A stretch of DNA of 21,326 nucleotides from a virus: positions 1 to 21,326 of IMG/VR virus record IMGVR_UViG_3300023181_000087, one strand, 5' to 3'. The notes under the pieces were generated by a model, which was not told where the DNA came from, searched no databases, and was given only the letters and a program-made list of their open reading frames with translations. The position numbers and the translations under genes are program-made. Each line of letters opens with the position of its first letter. Within the stretch, counting starts at the first letter, position 1. Shown here piece after piece: positions 4,157 to 20,256 of this stretch.

Positions 4157-4767
4157 TGACAGAAGCAGATGTTTTACAATTAATTGCTGATTTTATAGTA
4201 GCTAACGGAAACAATGAAATAACCGCAGATGTTTTACGTCCAATATTGGAGGAAATGGTAAAACAGCCTAATGATTACATTGGGGATTTATCACAGTTAA
4301 GCACAGCGGCTAACGATAATTTAGTAGAGGCAATAAACGAAGTAAATCAAGCAATAGCAGATTATGGCGTAAACTTTGTTACACTATATCAAGGCTATGA
4401 CAATCCAAATGTAACGCCTCCACCTACTTATTCATTTGGGGATTTCTATTTAGAAAAGGCATTGGATAATACGCCAATACAATTATGGCGTTATGATGTA
4501 ACTGGATGGGTTAACACATTGTCAAGTCCTGTAGATGTAATTTCCGCATTGACAGAATACCACGGACAATTCAATTGGGATTCAGTAGGAAATCCTTTGA
4601 AGCAATTTGACCTTCCAGAAAACTGCAAAATCATAAATGTTCATGCGGATGGAAGATACTTGAATCATACTTACGATTGGACACGTGGCACAGCACGATT
4701 AAATATAATATCAACAATAGACGAAAACGCATTCATCTGCGTAGATGGATTAATACCAACACCATAA
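4156..4767 (+). CDS. Tail-fibre-associated or baseplate-like structural protein
   Basis: A 203-residue protein that starts in a TAATG overlap with paralogue B. The N-terminal 35 residues (LIADFIVANGNNEITADVLR) resemble a helical head found at the start of many Bacteroidota phage fibre and baseplate proteins. A second helical region (LVEAINEVNQAIADYG) and a Gly/Pro-containing beta region (TPPPTYSFGDFYLEK) follow. The last 70 residues form a beta domain with aromatic residues. It lies directly before a large fibre gene. The fibre-attachment role is inference from the N-terminal pattern and position. Confidence 0.5.
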   Translation: MTEADVLQLIADFIVANGNNEITADVLRPILEEMVKQPNDYIGDLSQLSTAANDNLVEAINEVNQAIADYGVNFVTLYQGYDNPNVTPPPTYSFGDFYLEKALDNTPIQLWRYDVTGWVNTLSSPVDVISALTEYHGQFNWDSVGNPLKQFDLPENCKIINVHADGRYLNHTYDWTRGTARLNIISTIDENAFICVDGLIPTP

Positions 4768-7845: not shown

Positions 7846-7926
7846 GGGAGTAATGCCAATCGGTTAGGCGGCAGACTGTAAATCTGCTAAACGTTACGTT
7901 GGGTGGTTCGATTCCATCTGCTCCCA
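7846..7926 (+). tRNA. tRNA-Tyr (GTA)
   Basis: An 81-base class II tRNA. Acceptor GGGAGTA pairs with TGCTCCC; the anticodon stem GCAGA/TCTGC encloses loop CTGTAAA with anticodon GTA at 7878-7880; a long variable arm is present, as expected for bacterial tRNA-Tyr; the T arm has loop TTCGATT. The discriminator is A. CCA is not encoded in full. Confidence 0.9.
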
Positions 7927-7932
7927 CAAAAA

Positions 7933-8005
7933 GGTTTAGAAGCTAACTCGGTAGAAGCGTCGGACTGAAAATCCGAAGGAATTGGTTCAACTCCAATCTA
8001 TACCA
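7933..8005 (+). tRNA. tRNA-Phe (GAA)
   Basis: A 73-base cloverleaf. Acceptor GGTTTAG pairs with CTATACC with one T-T mismatch; the anticodon stem CGGA/TCCG encloses loop CTGAAAA with anticodon GAA at 7967-7969; T stem ATTGG/CCAAT with loop TTCAACT. The discriminator is A. It reads UUC/UUU. Confidence 0.85.
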
Positions 8006-8009
8006 CAAT

Positions 8010-8082
8010 GACCGCATAGCCCAACGGCAGAGGCATCGGGTTTAAGCCCCGTTCAGTAATGGTTCGAATCCATTTGCGGTTA
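8010..8082 (+). tRNA. tRNA-Leu (TAA) with short variable arm
   Basis: A 73-base cloverleaf. Acceptor GACCGCA pairs with TGCGGTT (first pair G-T); the anticodon stem CGGG/CCCG encloses loop TTTAAGC, giving anticodon TAA for UUA; T stem AATGG/CCATT with loop TTCGAAT. The variable region is only about 5 bases, whereas bacterial leucine tRNAs normally carry a long arm, and base 37 is G rather than the usual A. Charging with leucine is therefore assumed from the anticodon only. Confidence 0.75.
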
Positions 8083-8097
8083 CAAAAAAATGATAAT

Positions 8098-8171
8098 GCT
8101 CTGATACGCTAAATGGAAGTGCGGTAATACTTAGGATATTATGGTTGCAAGTTCGAATCTTGCTCAGAGTA
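8098..8171 (+). tRNA. tRNA-Leu (TAG) with short variable arm
   Basis: A 74-base cloverleaf. Acceptor GCTCTGA pairs with TCAGAGT (first pair G-T); anticodon stem TAATA/TATTA with loop CTTAGGA, anticodon TAG for CUA; T stem GCAAG/CTTGC with loop TTCGAAT. The variable region is 5 bases, again not class II. It is not a stop suppressor, because the anticodon sequence TAG reads CUA. Confidence 0.75.
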
Positions 8172-8178
8172 CTAAAAT

Positions 8179-10003: not shown

Positions 10004-10036
10004 GTACGTACGTATCAATTATTATGTATACATTTG
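10004..10036 (+). promoter_or_regulatory. Promoter P5 with GTACGTAC palindrome
   Basis: GTACGTAC at 10004-10011 sits where a -33 element is expected; GTATAC at 10026-10031 overlaps an exact -7 box TACATTTG (10029-10036). Upstream is an A/T-only tract (AATAATTTAAAAATAA type). The same set occurs at 15597. The palindrome is a candidate operator or activator site. Confidence 0.6.
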
Positions 10037-10040
10037 TCAT

Positions 10041-10134
10041 GTAGAGTTAGAGGGCTACCAACAAAGTTTACTGTTTTAATTTAAACAGACCGCAAAAGCC
10101 TCATTCGTCCTCTAACGTTTGGGGCTTTTTGCAT
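10041..10134 (+). ncRNA. Candidate kissing-loop small RNA, copy 1
   Basis: About 94 bases between promoter P5 and the gene at 10155. The 5' hairpin is GTAG (10041-10044)/CTAC (10055-10058), with GTTAGAGG (10046-10053) in its loop. A middle hairpin is CTGTTT (10071-10076)/AAACAG (10083-10088). The terminator hairpin is AAAAGCCTC (10094-10102)/GGGGCTTTT (10121-10129), ending in T, and its 18-base loop holds CCTCTAAC (10109-10116), the exact complement of the 5' loop. The two loops can pair over 8 bp. No ORF is seen. The same plan recurs at 18362. Confidence 0.55.
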
Positions 10135-10154: not shown

Positions 10155-10388
10155 ATGAAAATAGAAAACAAATTATCTGAAATTAAAAAACATTTAGGAC
10201 TTGAATTAGTAAAGTGTGATTATTTTACAGGAATACAAAATCACAATGGTAAAGAATATTTTAATATAATCACGAAAAACGCAATAAGCGAAGATTCATT
10301 ATATTATGATCTAAGAAGCCTTATACAAGTAGGCATATTGTCTAAAATAGAGCCTAATGGATATAAAAGAATTGCTTTATTTTTTTAA
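10155..10388 (+). CDS. Small hypothetical protein
   Basis: A 77-residue basic protein. I chose the ATG at 10155, which follows the conserved leader, over a TTG at 10119 inside the terminator. It reads as an N-terminal helix (KLSEIKKHLGLELV), a central part with DYFTGIQNHNGKEYFNI and a C-terminal helix-turn (YYDLRSLIQVGILS, KIEPNGYKRIALFF) that resembles a small winged-helix fold. It could bind DNA, but no family is recognised. Its leader matches that of the gene at 15659, so the two may be expressed together. Confidence 0.55.
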   Translation: MKIENKLSEIKKHLGLELVKCDYFTGIQNHNGKEYFNIITKNAISEDSLYYDLRSLIQVGILSKIEPNGYKRIALFF

Positions 10389-13122: not shown

Positions 13123-13586
13123 TAACAACAGAGCAAGCAATAAAAAAATACGGAAAACCAAATCAATCAGGCGCAGGATATTTAGTAAGTATTAATTTGC
13201 CTTTTCCAATGCGTTTAGCATGGGATTTAAATACTAAGGTAAAAACAGTTCGCTGTCATAAGTTAATAGCTGAAAAGCTATTAAATGCACTTAATGAAAT
13301 AAACTGTGTTTACGGATATACGAAAATAGTAGATTTAGGTATTGATTTGTTTGGGGGCTGTTTTAATTTCAGACAAATGCGTGGCGGTTCAGATTACAGT
13401 CGGCATAGCTGGGGAATCGCAATAGATTTAGATCCCTTACGGAATCAGTTACATGAAACATCTAAAACAGCTAGATTTGCAAGACCTGAATACAAACAAA
13501 TGATTGATATATTTTACAAACATGGATTTATTTCATTAGGTAGGGACAAAAACTACGATTGGATGCACTTTGAAATAAAAGATTAG
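13119..13586 (+). CDS. M15-family peptidase, probable endolysin
   Basis: A 155-residue zinc peptidase related to VanY and L-Ala-D-Glu peptidases, which cut peptide bridges of peptidoglycan. The SxHxxGxAxD motif is present (SRHSWGIAID, residues 94-103, with zinc ligands His96 and Asp103), and the second signature is DWMHFE near residues 147-152, with His150 as the third ligand. The domain fills most of the protein and there is no wall-binding domain or signal peptide, so release would depend on the holin. The holin-like and spanin-like genes lie 3-4 kb upstream. The start is set by the ATGA overlap with a mini-ORF. Confidence 0.85.
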   Translation: MITTEQAIKKYGKPNQSGAGYLVSINLPFPMRLAWDLNTKVKTVRCHKLIAEKLLNALNEINCVYGYTKIVDLGIDLFGGCFNFRQMRGGSDYSRHSWGIAIDLDPLRNQLHETSKTARFARPEYKQMIDIFYKHGFISLGRDKNYDWMHFEIKD

Positions 13587-13596
13587 CGTATATTTG
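13569..13596 (+). promoter_or_regulatory. Promoter P7 at the end of the endolysin gene
   Basis: TTTG at 13569-13572, 16 bases, then TATATTTG at 13589-13596. Transcription would start near 13602, directly before an inverted repeat, and drive the homing endonuclease gene. Confidence 0.5.
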
Positions 13597-13604
13597 TAGT
13601 AAAT

Positions 13605-13656
13605 CCCGCCAGATTTAAAATTTAAATCAATGCTTTTCTTATGACTTCCTGGCGGG
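13605..13656 (+). repeat. Inverted repeat forming a 5' hairpin before the homing endonuclease
   Basis: CCCGCCAG (13605-13612) and CTGGCGGG (13649-13656) are perfect 8-bp arms, GC-rich in an AT-rich setting. Between them GATTTAAA (13612-13619) and TTTAAATC (13621-13628) form a second palindrome. No T run follows, so a terminator is less likely than a 5'-UTR structure. An in-frame ATG at 13641 lies within it. Confidence 0.6.
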
Positions 13657-13682
13657 TGTTATTCGAAAGGCATTTTTCAATT

Positions 13683-14273
13683 ATGATAGGAATATACAAA
13701 ATAACAAATCCTGAGGGTTTAGTTTACGTAGGAGCAAGTAGTAATATAATGAAAAGAATAAATCATTATAAATCTATAAGCTGTAAAGGTCAGAAGAAAT
13801 TATATTCTTCTATTCAAAAGTATGGATTTGACAATCATTTATTTGAAGTTTTAGAGGAATGTGATAAAAGCCAACTTAATGATAAAGAATGCTTTTATGG
13901 AATTAAATACGATGTTTTGGAAAATGGTCTAAATTCGGTTGTACCTAAAATGGGTGTTAGTATGGAAACTAAAATAAAAATGAGCGTTAATAAGATGGGT
14001 TCAAAAAACAAATTTTATGGAAAAACACATTCTGATGAAACAAAGGAAAAAATAAGACAATTTCAAACAGGAAGAAAGCATACAATGGAACACAGAATGA
14101 AGGTTTCTAAGAATAGCGCAAAATCGATGTCTAAAATAGTTTTAGATTTGTCTACTGGAATATTTTTTAACTCGATAAAAGAAGCCTCTATTTGTTTAGG
14201 GTTTAATCACTCTACTTTAAAAAGCAAACTTAACGGCTCAAACAAAAACACAACAAATTTAATAATAGTCTAA
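13683..14273 (+). CDS. GIY-YIG homing endonuclease with NUMOD-type DNA-binding modules
   Basis: A 196-residue free-standing endonuclease. The N-terminal domain shows MIGIYKITN and VYVGASS (the GIY and YVG motifs), Arg25 in the helix after them, and a Glu in DKECFYGI, matching catalytic residues of the I-TevI family. The middle has NUMOD3-like repeats (NKFYGKTHSDETKEKI; GRKHTMEHRMKVS). The C terminus has a NUMOD1/helix-turn-helix-like module (VLDLSTGIFFNSIKEAS, LGFNHSTLKSKLNG). I prefer the ATG at 13683 to the in-frame ATG at 13641, because the latter adds 14 residues before the GIY motif and lies in a hairpin. Such genes move by cutting related phages that lack them. No intron is apparent. 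Confidence 0.85.
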   Translation: MIGIYKITNPEGLVYVGASSNIMKRINHYKSISCKGQKKLYSSIQKYGFDNHLFEVLEECDKSQLNDKECFYGIKYDVLENGLNSVVPKMGVSMETKIKMSVNKMGSKNKFYGKTHSDETKEKIRQFQTGRKHTMEHRMKVSKNSAKSMSKIVLDLSTGIFFNSIKEASICLGFNHSTLKSKLNGSNKNTTNLIIV

Positions 14274-15066: not shown

Positions 15067-15119
15067 ATAAAAGCGGAACCCGAAAAGCTAACGAGTAGGG
15101 AAAACATTAATTTATTTTT

Positions 15120-15509
15120 ATGAGAAGTATTTTTAGCGTCGTGTTATTAGGAATTGCAATGTTATCCTGCACGAATGAAAACGAAGTTACAACGGCTAAC
15201 CTAGAAGCCGAAACACCTGTTGAATTGACTTGGATAGATGGTGGCACATCGGGTTACTCGGTAATCGACCGAACCAACACAACGGCAACATGGACTATTA
15301 TTTGTAAGGACGGTACGCCAGCAGACAGCCCTTACGGTACATTTTGCGCAAGTGATGGTAAGGGCAATTACGCCACTGTAAATTGGAGCCTAAGCCGATC
15401 AAGCGTATTAACTCCAGGCGGCGGCGGTCACGGTTACGTCGGCAGTGCGTCAGGCGGTGGCTATATACATTATTACTCAAACCGAGTGCCTTTTTGCGGT
15501 GCTTGCTAG
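15120..15509 (+). CDS. Phage-encoded lipoprotein with Gly-rich C terminus
   Basis: A 129-residue protein. Residues 1-16 form a lipoprotein signal peptide, with MLSC at 14-17 as a good lipobox, followed by an acidic NENE stretch. The mature part is Thr-rich with paired Cys (TIICKDG; GTFCASDGKGNY) and a Gly-rich region (PGGGGHGYVGSASGGGY) before the final CGAC, so disulfides are likely. The gene stands alone, with an AACATTAATTTATTTTT leader and a strong terminator 17 bases after its stop. It is probably surface or periplasmic; receptor masking or exclusion is inference. Confidence 0.65.
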   Translation: MRSIFSVVLLGIAMLSCTNENEVTTANLEAETPVELTWIDGGTSGYSVIDRTNTTATWTIICKDGTPADSPYGTFCASDGKGNYATVNWSLSRSSVLTPGGGGHGYVGSASGGGYIHYYSNRVPFCGAC

Positions 15510-15596: not shown

Positions 15597-15624
15597 GTAC
15601 GTACTAATAAAGTACGTACATTTG
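15597..15624 (+). promoter_or_regulatory. Promoter P8 with duplicated GTACGTAC palindrome
   Basis: GTACGTAC at 15597-15604 and again at 15612-15619, the second overlapping an exact -7 box TACATTTG (15617-15624). No TTG -33 element is present, so the palindrome may bind an activator or repressor. An A/T-only tract lies upstream, as at 10004. It should drive the small-gene operon from 15659. Confidence 0.65.
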
Positions 15625-15639
15625 CTATATAAAAACAAC

Positions 15640-18339: not shown

Positions 18340-18361
18340 ATAATTTCACTATCTTAGCATA

Positions 18362-18447
18362 ACAATAGCGGTCGAACTATTGCACAACACACAACGGTTT
18401 TACTAGGAAAGGATTCGACCACTTTCCAATTGGTAGAGCCGTTTTTT
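18362..18447 (+). ncRNA. Candidate kissing-loop small RNA, copy 2
   Basis: Lies in the 131-base gap between genes. A weak -7 box (TATCTTAG, 18350-18357) precedes it by a few bases. The 5' hairpin is CAATAG (18363-18368)/CTATTG (18377-18382) with loop CGGTCGAA. The terminator hairpin has AACGG (18393-18397)/CCGTT (18439-18443) at the base and GGAAAG (18406-18411)/CTTTCC (18422-18427) at the top, then a T run. Its apical loop contains TTCGACC (18414-18420), the perfect complement of GGTCGAA (18370-18376) in the 5' loop: a 7-bp kissing interaction. The linker is ten bases. The plan matches 10041-10134. Confidence 0.6.
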
Positions 18448-18450
18448 ATT

Positions 18451-18470
18451 TAACCAAAAATTATAAAAAC
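18451..18470 (+). repeat. Recurrent A-rich translation leader
   Basis: TAACCAAAAATTATAAAAAC before the ATG at 18471; near-identical copies lie at 18689-18705 (before 18706), 14280-14297 (before 14298), 16740-16754 (before 16755) and 20896-20912 (before 20913). It has no Shine-Dalgarno sequence, so it is probably a ribosome-recruiting leader. Confidence 0.6.
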
Positions 18471-18689
18471 ATGAAATACATTACAAAATTAAAATTAGCT
18501 TCCGTTCATCAGGTTTGCGATTTTGAAAACAAATCAACAGAATTTATGCTTCAACTAATGCAAGATACTTGTAAAGTAGATTTAGATACTGTTATTGCAT
18601 ATATGGAAACGCCTTTTGAAGAAAAACAAAAACTTTTTTCGGATTTAAAAGATTTGCTTAACGTGATTACAAAATTAGATATTTTTTAA
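18471..18689 (+). CDS. Small hypothetical protein
   Basis: A 72-residue protein with a basic start (MKYITKLKLASVHQV) and a helical acidic remainder (EKQKLFSDLKDLLNVITKL). It is the first gene after the structured RNA at 18362 and shares a leader with the next gene, so they are probably one recombination operon. Function unknown. Confidence 0.55.
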   Translation: MKYITKLKLASVHQVCDFENKSTEFMLQLMQDTCKVDLDTVIAYMETPFEEKQKLFSDLKDLLNVITKLDIF

Positions 18690-18705
18690 CCAAAAATTAT
18701 AAATT

Positions 18706-19206
18706 ATGTCAACAGAAAAACACCATTACAGAAACGTTTTCAAATCGGATCACTTAGGAAGTGCAGATTTAGAAGATTTCATCGAACAAAAGAAAGCACT
18801 TGTTTTTACAATTAAAGAAGTTAAACAAGAGTTTGGCGCAAAGGTGGCGGGTAAAAAAGGGGATTTTAACATTGCCTATTTCGTAGAACCGATTAAGCCT
18901 TTGGTTTTAAATGCAACAAACTCGAAACAAATTAAGGCATTCGCGGGCGGTTCTCCTTTTGTTGAGAATTGGAAAAATATAACAATCGAATTATACATCG
19001 ATGAAAATGTTAAGTCTGTTGCGGGAGGAACAACGCAAGGAGTTAGAATACGACCTGTTCAGCCTATAGTTTCAAAGCCTGAATTTAAAGAGGTTAACTT
19101 TGAGCCAGCAAAAAAAGCTAATGCTACAATTGAAATGATAAAATTAGGATATTCAATTACTCCTGAAATGGAAAAAATGTATTTGGAATATGCAACAGCG
19201 GAGTAA
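18706..19206 (+). CDS. Recombination-associated protein, possible ssDNA-binding protein
   Basis: A 166-residue protein beginning MSTEKHHYRNVFKSDHLGSA, with FNIAYFVEPIKPLVLNATNS in the middle, then a FVENWKNITIELYIDENVK segment and GVRIRPVQP near residue 135. The family, as I remember it, sits beside YqaJ exonucleases in Bacteroidota phages and has no firm function. The beta-rich centre with basic and aromatic residues would suit an OB-like ssDNA-binding protein or annealing cofactor. It overlaps the exonuclease gene by 17 bases, so the two proteins are probably made together. Confidence 0.55.
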   Translation: MSTEKHHYRNVFKSDHLGSADLEDFIEQKKALVFTIKEVKQEFGAKVAGKKGDFNIAYFVEPIKPLVLNATNSKQIKAFAGGSPFVENWKNITIELYIDENVKSVAGGTTQGVRIRPVQPIVSKPEFKEVNFEPAKKANATIEMIKLGYSITPEMEKMYLEYATAE

Positions 19207-19816
19207 AGAATGGTTTGCTATGCGGAAAGGTAGAGTTACAGGCTCTACCGTTTCACGCATACTTGGTAAGGAAGGACTAAAGGCAACCATTGGAGCCATT
19301 GAAAACTACGCAGAAGAAAAAGCCATTGAAATAGTTTACGGACTGGATGAAGAAGATACTTTCGAATCAGCAGACATGAAACGTGGAACCGAATTAGAAC
19401 CCTTAGCATTCCGTAAGTTTTCGGAGTTAATGATTTTAAAATTTGTTACCGTAAAAGAATGTACCTTTTTCCCTTTTGGCAAAGATGCTGGCGCAAGTCC
19501 TGATGGTATAGTTTCCGATGATGAGTGTTTAGAAATAAAATGCCCAAGGCCTAAAAAGTTTTTCAACTTGGTTCGTGTTGGCATTCCCGCTATTGATTCA
19601 GAATACATGGCACAAATGCAATTTGAAATGTTATGCAGTAATTCAAAGCGTTGCCATTTTTTCAACTACATAATTTACAATGGAAAAGAAATGTGGCATC
19701 ACTTAATTATTGAACGTGATGAGGTGTTTATTGACTTTATAAAAACCCGCGTAAAAGAAGTAGTTTCATTGCGTGACAGGTTTGTAAAAGAAATGTTTGC
19801 AAAACAACAGTTCTAA
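19190..19816 (+). CDS. YqaJ-type phage recombination exonuclease
   Basis: A 208-residue nuclease of the lambda-exonuclease/YqaJ fold (PD-(D/E)XK). The family degrades one DNA strand to give 3' tails for recombination. Motifs in order: RSKEWFAMRKGRVTGSTVS at residues 4-22; MKRGTELEPLAFRKF at 63-77 (catalytic-type Glu68/Glu70); GASPDG at 101-106 (Asp105); ECLEIKCPRP at 112-121 (Glu115-x-Lys117); and EYMAQMQFEM at 138-147 (conserved Gln). All key residues are present and the length is normal. It is coupled to the NinB/Orf-like gene downstream (TAATG). Confidence 0.88.
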   Translation: MQQRSKEWFAMRKGRVTGSTVSRILGKEGLKATIGAIENYAEEKAIEIVYGLDEEDTFESADMKRGTELEPLAFRKFSELMILKFVTVKECTFFPFGKDAGASPDGIVSDDECLEIKCPRPKKFFNLVRVGIPAIDSEYMAQMQFEMLCSNSKRCHFFNYIIYNGKEMWHHLIIERDEVFIDFIKTRVKEVVSLRDRFVKEMFAKQQF

Positions 19817-20256
19817 TGAAAATACAAATAATAACCTCGATAATTGATGGACGTTTCAAAAGAAACATTAACCATGTTTTGGATGCGGTTAAAAACTTCG
19901 AAGGCAAAAACTGTTTATTAACTTTAGAGCCAATTAAAAAGAACCGCTCTAATCAACAAAATAGTTTTTATTGGGGCGTAGTGGTGGTTTTGGTTCAAAG
20001 CGGCTTAAAAGACGCCACAGGAGAGTTCAGGACGGCAGAAAACATTCACTACAATATACTTCTTAAGATGTTTGCGCCTGAAAAGGAATTGATAAACATA
20101 GAAACAGGCGAATGCATCACAGAGAAAATAAGCAGTTCCGAAATGACAACCACGCAATTTATGGAATATATTATGGAAATTCAAAAATGGGCTTCGGAGT
20201 TTTTGAATATCGACATACCAAATCCGAATGAAGAAATAACTTTAAATTTTGAATAA
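19816..20256 (+). CDS. NinB/Orf-like recombination protein
   Basis: A 146-residue protein. The central KKNRSNQQNSFYWGVVVVLV and the C-terminal MTTTQFMEYIMEIQKWASEF, ending NIDIPNPNE, resemble NinB (lambda Orf), a recombination mediator that helps load recombinases onto ssDNA; that family keeps RSxxQNxxxW and an S/T-x-x-x-F-x-x-x-I helix. The N-terminal beta segment also fits. Position directly after the exonuclease supports the role. The similarity is partial, so the call is moderate. Confidence 0.6.
   Translation: MKIQIITSIIDGRFKRNINHVLDAVKNFEGKNCLLTLEPIKKNRSNQQNSFYWGVVVVLVQSGLKDATGEFRTAENIHYNILLKMFAPEKELINIETGECITEKISSSEMTTTQFMEYIMEIQKWASEFLNIDIPNPNEEITLNFE

Follow-up and report, generated by a model that had tools for sequence, protein, structure and literature searches.

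We found that the 21,326-nt stretch of viral DNA analyzed here (IMG/VR virus record IMGVR_UViG_3300023181_000087; "the window") contains three copies, starting at 10029, 13589 and 18350, of an RNA element in which the loop of a 5′ hairpin is complementary to the apical loop of a terminator-like hairpin. The copies almost certainly belong to a previously uncatalogued family of structured RNAs, ~95 nt long, from viruses of Flavobacterium and related bacteria, in which the two loops pair (kissing loops). The family is defined by a descriptor with controls and by covariation of the stems and of the kissing helix. We propose, at a probability of roughly 50%, that these RNAs are cis-acting leaders that attenuate transcription in Bacteroidota phages.

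Three kissing elements in the window

The features of the three elements and of the genes that follow them are listed below; copy numbers follow the initial annotation, with the additional element as copy 3.

18350..18357, + strand: copy 2, −7 promoter box TATCTTAG of the Bacteroidota type (consensus TAnnTTTG), read directly from the sequence
18363..18382, + strand: copy 2, 5′ hairpin with stem CAATAG (18363-18368)/CTATTG (18377-18382) and loop CGGTCGAA (18369-18376), from the sequence and RNAfold
18383..18392, + strand: copy 2, 10-nt linker CACAACACAC, from the sequence and the fold
18393..18447, + strand: copy 2, terminator-like hairpin (18393-18443) with apical loop GATTCGACCA (18412-18421) and T-run (18442-18447)
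18471..18689, + strand: first gene downstream of copy 2, 72 aa, function not assigned, head of the recombination operon; ATG 27 nt past the stem
18706..20256, + strand: recombination genes encoding a phrog_21613 protein, a YqaJ exonuclease (PF09588) and a NinB-like protein
13589..13677, + strand: copy 1, box TATATTTG (13589-13596), 5′ hairpin (13600-13617; loop CCCGCCAG) and T-run at the end
13629-13674, + strand: copy 1, terminator hairpin with kissing stretch CTGGCGGG (13649-13656)
13683..14273, + strand: GIY-YIG/NUMOD3 homing endonuclease gene directly 3′ of copy 1; ATG ~8 nt past the hairpin stem
10029..10130, + strand: copy 3, box TACATTTG, 5′ hairpin (10041-10058; GTTAGAGG at 10046-10053), then a middle hairpin
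within 10029..10130, + strand: copy 3, terminator with CCTCTAAC (10109-10116) and T-run (10126-10130)
10155..10388, + strand: 77-aa open reading frame 3′ of copy 3, without a Pfam match

The initial annotation, made from the letters alone, had described copy 2 as two hairpins separated by a linker of ten bases, with loops that are exact 7-bp complements. Direct reading of the sequence confirmed this: GGTCGAA (18370-18376) and TTCGACC (18414-18420) are exact 7-nt complements. It had also reported an unrelated sequence with the same order of box, 5′ hairpin and terminator carrying the complement (copy 1), and this element is real. Both cases that it counted in 21 kb therefore stood, but the count was too low. 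A check of the same genome for further copies, which it had suggested, turned up copy 3.

The minimum free energy structure of copy 2 (−26.6 kcal/mol, RNAfold) contains both hairpins. Its z score was −4.05 and none of 200 shuffles was as good, while the reverse strand folded no better than expected (z = −1.38). For random loops of the same base composition, the probability of a 7-nt complement between loops of 8 and 10 nt, as in copy 2, was 0.0007, and that of an 8-nt complement between loops of 8 and 12 nt, as in copy 1, was 0.0001. The box of copy 2 (TATCTTAG) is of the family type and lies 5 nt upstream of the hairpin, and the terminator and T-run are followed within ~50 nt by an open reading frame (ATG at 18471), as in the rest of the family.

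Copy 1 comes after the endolysin gene. Copy 2 is at the head of the recombination operon, as had been annotated: the 72-aa open reading frame is followed by the genes for the phrog_21613 protein, YqaJ and the NinB-like protein. A same-locus search covered the regions upstream of the downstream gene in 11 relatives and of the 72-aa open reading frame in 4, and the element was absent from all of them. BLAST of the copy 2 element itself against phages gave nothing real, and its exact 5′ hairpin had no match in IMG/VR. The locus at 18.35 kb is not conserved among relatives of the adjoining recombination genes, because the element is a module that can be moved or exchanged.

The window has several other features. 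The Rfam DUF805b RNA (RF02914) matches positions 15070-15101 with 40 bits, above the gathering score, 5′ of a small open reading frame at 15120; this match is a second structured cis-element of the same phage. Palindromes of the GTACGTAC type are at 10010-10036 and 15597-15626, immediately 5′ of TACATTTG promoter boxes or overlapping them, and are possibly a shared operator; positions 15597-15619 form a perfect inverted repeat, GTACGTACTAATAAAGTACGTAC. A near-identical stretch of 22 nt (TTTAACCAAAAATTATAAA...) precedes two successive start codons (18451-18472 and 18682-18703) and is perhaps a translation-start motif. A cluster of four tRNA genes (Tyr, Phe, Leu, Leu) is at 7846-8172.

A family of RNAs in phages of Flavobacterium and related bacteria

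Adjacent hairpins with complementary loops of 7-8 nt arise by chance in AT-rich DNA, as seen in a loose loop-complement scan. Complementarity alone is therefore unconvincing; it is the box, 5′ hairpin, terminator and complement jointly that convince. Because the loose scans gave many AT-rich chance matches, we replaced them with a strict descriptor and controls. The descriptor consists of a TAnnTT[T/A]G box, a 5′ hairpin within 12 nt, a complement of its loop in the apex of a terminator hairpin, and a T-run; the strict settings demand a complement (k) of at least 7 nt, GC of at least 3 and a strong terminator. With these settings there were 16 elements in 0.98 Mb of related loci that had been fetched without a loop criterion. 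There were none in 15 dinucleotide shuffles and none when the partner was reversed, complemented or repeated. With k = 6 and loose settings, the descriptor did no better than its controls (35 vs 26-37), and so we took the strict set alone as evidence.

Besides recovering the three copies of the window, the descriptor matched related contigs (L003, L004-L007, L008, L010, L013, L015 and L021) with GC-containing pairs of 7-9 nt, and there was a further member in L009. Members from cultured phages are in FCL-2 (37475), FCV-1 (35865 and 40354), FCOV-S2 (35295 and 38516), elemoF, elemoA and snusmum9-1 (9083, 13024 and 14059). The proposal in the initial annotation that the copies represent a phage RNA family is thus borne out, by this recurrence in many phage contigs and cultured phages and by covariation of stems and kissing loops (below). 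When the search made no demand for kissing, promoter-hairpin-terminator units split into those with a loop complement of at least 7 nt and those with one of at most 4 nt, with none at 5-6 nt, in a set that was partly fetched by a loop pattern, so that its counts are not a frequency.

We rejected some candidates. Pattern matches in L065 and L091 were structures without a terminator and are probably due to chance, and a recurrent match with k = 8 in tail genes of the FCL-2 type (L030, L057, L085 and L086, ~17.6 kb) was excluded because it is inside a coding region. Cellulophaga phage Nekkels_1 (L097) has a promoter and leader at 13565, upstream of the portal gene, that may be a divergent member preceding structural genes; CTACCTTAC near the 5′ end of this leader matches GTAAGGTAG in the terminator loop (9 nt), with alternative folds.

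The initial annotation could not match the RNA to a known class, and neither could we. None of the kissing elements tested (those of the window and relatives) reached the gathering threshold of any of the 4227 models in Rfam 15, and we found no description of such an RNA in the literature covered, that is, open-licence papers.

We also scanned for individual loop alleles. The pattern TATATTTG-N6-16-CCACTAC-N35-65-GTAGTGG had 26 matches in IMG/VR and the same loops in swapped order had 9, compared with none for a scrambled partner of equal composition. Two allele-pattern scans of 84,980 prokaryote species genomes gave 0 and 0 matches. The scanned alleles were therefore found in virus contigs alone, and these results exclude chance. 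Although the pattern asked for no stem, one of at least 4 bp closes the loop in 17 of the 19 distinct matches of the first type. The closing stems are of many different sequences (for example, GCAA/TTGC, CGTTG/CAACG, GTGA/TCAC and AGATA/TATCT).

Stems and the kissing helix covary among orthologues

Orthologues were gathered by plain DNA similarity, with the loops disregarded. The elements at 35865 in FCV-1 and 14059 in snusmum9-1 are 75% identical and can be aligned. Three of the eight pairs of their kissing helix have changed on both sides and are still paired, and so have five pairs of the terminator stem. The comparison included FCOV-S2, in which the kissing helix has 7 pairs vs 8 in FCV-1. 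Over the whole structure, 97.8% of cells are paired, vs 32-45% with the partners slid. In a subfamily of 14 sequences, double changes occur in 18 of 27 pairs, a value that none of 500 shuffles reached, and 87% of cells are paired, vs at most 41% when slid; the terminator and 5′ stems covary throughout.

Orthologues found by similarity of their flanks behave in the same way. elemoF and elemoA are identical through the promoter box and their RNAs differ beyond it, with the loop pairs GTGGAGG/CCTCCAC in elemoF and TGAGAGC/GCTCTCA in elemoA. The loop pair of elemoA_13-1A, GTGAGATG/CATCTCAC, is complementary too, and its promoter region is identical or near-identical to those of other elemo phages. 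L004 and L010 share a downstream gene and have their loops exchanged: one has CTTCTCAC in the 5′ loop and GTGAGAAG in the 3′ loop, and the other has the reverse. The letters of the loops vary freely between viruses and yet the match is kept, which shows that pairing matters.

Homologues that keep the hairpins and lose the complementarity had been named as the observation that would speak against kissing. Among the orthologues collected by similarity regardless of their loops, there was no clear instance of lost pairing. L016 has a hairpin and terminator (6663) after the endolysin gene, syntenic with copy 1 and without a loop complement; this may be an ordinary, unrelated terminator.

Common anatomy of the members

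Measured from 5′ hairpin to U-tract, the RNAs of 37 distinct members are 96 ± 8 nt long (range 82-115 nt), and the gap between box and hairpin is 0-11 nt. Some members have a middle hairpin. The terminator has 11-24 pairs, and the loop complement of 7-9 nt corresponds to a duplex worth −8 to −16 kcal/mol. The start codon is 4-49 nt past the stem (median 14 nt), with the shortest spacing at endonuclease genes (median 7.5 nt vs about 18; p = 0.017).

The type of promoter box is invariant in 40 distinct members, and TTG is enriched ~20 nt upstream of it. The Bacteroidota promoter consensus includes such an upstream TTG. Because the TTG ~20 nt upstream of TATATTTG fits a Bacteroidota promoter, the transcript is predicted to start at or beside the 5′ hairpin. 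At the other end, all 37 members measured have at least 5 T in the 8 nt past the last G/C of the stem (mean 6.1 vs a background of 2.5). Thus, a GC-containing stem followed by a U-tract lies between promoter and gene, the arrangement of an attenuator with an intrinsic terminator. A terminator scan did not list the copies, because it allows only loops of 3-8 nt.

The geometry of the kiss is less simple. Linker length does not grow with terminator length, as strict intramolecular geometry would predict. By a rough estimate, a straight stack of 6 + 7 + 19 bp in copy 2 spans more than its 10-nt linker reaches. An intramolecular kiss in copy 2 with the terminator fully formed would therefore need a bend or partial opening; otherwise the short linker points to pairing in trans.

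Downstream genes and exchange of cassettes

The genes downstream of members encode homing endonucleases of the NUMOD4/HNH or GIY-YIG type (10), replication-initiator-like proteins (HTH_36, Phg_2220_C and Lin1244), DEAD helicases, a BT4734/PriCT primase, PAPS reductase and, in the window, the YqaJ/NinB recombination operon. The allele CCACTAC precedes unrelated genes, so the letters of the loop do not identify the gene.

The RNA and its gene move as one cassette that includes the promoter. A block of promoter, RNA and HNH gene is present between RusA and the next gene in FCV-1 and absent in FCL-2. Comparison of FCL-2 with FCOV-S2 shows an exchange between flanks of 98.5% and 99.5% identity, with the promoter box as the point where similarity ends. 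Among the elemo phages L096, L099, L100 and L101, a gene for tRNA-Met or tRNA-Ala has been exchanged at the position immediately 5′ of the kissing leader that heads the replication operon.

Four phages have two or three copies each; their loops match over 7-8 nt in cis and over at most 4 nt between copies. L090 is an exception to this orthogonality: its copies at 4205 and 334 (minus strand) both have the loop GTAGTGG.

A proposed function in attenuation

The terminator is between the promoter and the start codon, with little room for another promoter, and so the gene would have to be reached by read-through. This is why we chose an attenuating leader, the reading to which we give about an even chance. 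Host RNA polymerase would start at the TAnnTTTG promoter, and the transcript would begin almost directly with the 5′ hairpin. It would then fold into this short hairpin, sometimes a middle hairpin, and the terminator hairpin, whose apical loop would pair with the 5′ loop over 7-9 bp. We infer three things: termination of transcription by the hairpin, kissing inside a single molecule, and stabilization of the terminated RNA and the terminator by the kiss. Most transcripts would end at the U-tract, giving a compact RNA of ~96 nt whose two ends are both locked in structure. Transcripts that read through would express the gene that starts from a few to ~50 nt further on. The kiss would tie a weak 5′ hairpin (4-8 bp) to the terminator, should protect both ends, and may alter termination. 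The element may thereby throttle early or potentially harmful genes (homing endonucleases, replication and recombination), traveling with them as a cassette of promoter, RNA and gene. It is also conceivable, and we hold this tentatively, that the loop-loop helix is a switch in which the nascent 5′ hairpin captures the terminator loop on its emergence from the polymerase and thereby determines the frequency of termination. We noticed no alternative fold for a choice between termination and read-through.

The U-rich stretch before the start codon could serve translation initiation instead. The element would then be a 5′-untranslated module for stability or translation, without termination: the structure would protect the 5′ end, and either the U-rich stretch is a landing site for the ribosome or the hairpin, 4-14 nt before the AUG, restrains translation. 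The position of the 5′ hairpin at the predicted transcript start agrees with this, as does the short distance from stem to AUG (4-49 nt, and closest at endonuclease genes). We consider it rather unlikely, because all members measured have a stem followed directly by at least 5 T in 8 nt, the hallmark of intrinsic termination, and because the U-tract is mirrored by an A-rich 5′ side. The opposite effect on transcription would result if the kissing-locked leader bound polymerase and made it read through pauses and terminators, including its own, so that early operons were fully expressed. Two hairpins at the heads of early operons, as in HK022 put, and a compact fold that is kept while the sequence drifts are what this would look like. 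However, the strong hairpin and U-tract at the end of 37/37 members would be out of place, processive antitermination has little to do before the single endonuclease gene that many members precede, and a polymerase-binding RNA should conserve contact residues, whereas the sequence here varies freely. We think such a role unlikely.

The loops might also act between molecules, with the terminated RNA pairing through its loops with another copy of itself, nascent or free, for feedback, exclusion of related phages, or dimers. The loops are self-complementary pairs that are allele-specific, with no cross-match between copies in the four phages tested, and the linker of copy 2 is short for an intramolecular kiss. 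Comparable cases are the copy control of ColE1 and pT181 and the P4 CI RNA; the latter pairs with leader sequences (PMC4825925). A partner in the same molecule, 10-60 nt away, should nonetheless outcompete one in trans, and the two copies in L090 have the same loop. Moreover, all isolates in the snusmum study are described as virulent except for a single temperate phage from a different genus (PMC7077304). Trans-acting control of this kind seems to us quite unlikely. Finally, the two 7-mers also form an inverted repeat at the DNA level, and loose chance matches do occur in AT-rich DNA, so we considered protein-bound repeats or plain chance. This DNA-level explanation is refuted by the covariation and the control scans, which gave zero, and we give it almost no weight. 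There is no common binding sequence: the alleles are wholly different, with letters that are free while the pairing is kept, and stems and kissing helix covary as RNA. In addition, promoter and U-tract are on one strand only.

Attenuating leaders or not, these elements are a compact and strongly covarying RNA family, absent from Rfam and from the literature searched, in phages of an ecologically important group of bacteria. They mark promoters and expression units in genomes in which few have been mapped, and they join homing endonucleases with replication modules, both carried in exchangeable cassettes of promoter, RNA and gene. About twenty loop alleles have been seen, which makes the family a clean natural system for studying the effect of a loop-loop contact on an intrinsic terminator. 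Because the loop pairs are naturally orthogonal in most multi-copy phages, they are a possible set of parts for synthetic attenuators. If the loop-loop helix is indeed a switch, the family would be a class of protein-free RNA regulators with a private loop code for each copy; several could then operate in parallel in one phage and be exchanged together with genes as ready-made expression modules.

Comparison with known systems

Kissing of the ColE1 RNA I/RNA II type involves 7-bp helices between loops of 7-8 nt in sense and antisense RNAs made from opposite strands. The kissing leaders are similar in their 7-bp loop-loop helix and in specificity set by the loop letters, and, judged by sequence, their typical 5′ loop is 1 + 7 nt. 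They differ in that a single strand and a single transcript carry both loops, the second of which is a terminator's apex.

Antitermination by put of phage HK022 works through contact with the zinc-binding domain of the polymerase β′ subunit. To our knowledge, put RNA has no hairpin and U-tract terminator of its own. It is an RNA of ~70 nt with two stem-loops, just downstream of an early promoter, and acts on polymerase without other factors (PMC9378689). Like putL and putR (PMC9378689), the kissing leaders are short, sequence-economical RNAs that act in cis, have about two hairpins and immediately follow early promoters of phages. put acts as an antiterminator, and we found no mention of kissing in its description (PMC9378689), whereas the kissing leaders have a built-in terminator and paired loops. 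Rather than ~70-nt RNAs of two hairpins without a U-tract, they are 82-115 nt long and have a U-tract in every member measured.

The CI RNA of P4 stops transcription of replication genes through pairing with leader sequences (PMC4825925). This system and IsrK of Gifsy-1 are alike with the kissing leaders in that a phage leader gives a short terminated RNA and a read-through mRNA with replication or regulatory genes, and RNA pairing decides (PMC4825925). However, CI RNA is processed and pairs in trans with two separate sites in the leader. In the kissing leaders, two loops of one ~96-nt RNA would pair, terminator and complement are in one hairpin, and the phages include isolates described as virulent. 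canT of Tn916 is similar in that a terminator guards genes of a mobile element that would be costly if expressed early (PMC11658703). There, terminator and processive antiterminator are separate, whereas in the kissing leaders a dedicated promoter feeds the terminator directly. The Rfam DUF805b RNA and other Bacteroidota cis-RNA motifs are likewise short cis-elements of Bacteroidota; they differ in that the kissing elements tested have no match in Rfam. As described, none of put, P4 CI/IsrK, canT and the ColE1-type RNAs unites a 5′ hairpin with a terminator that carries the complement in its own loop.
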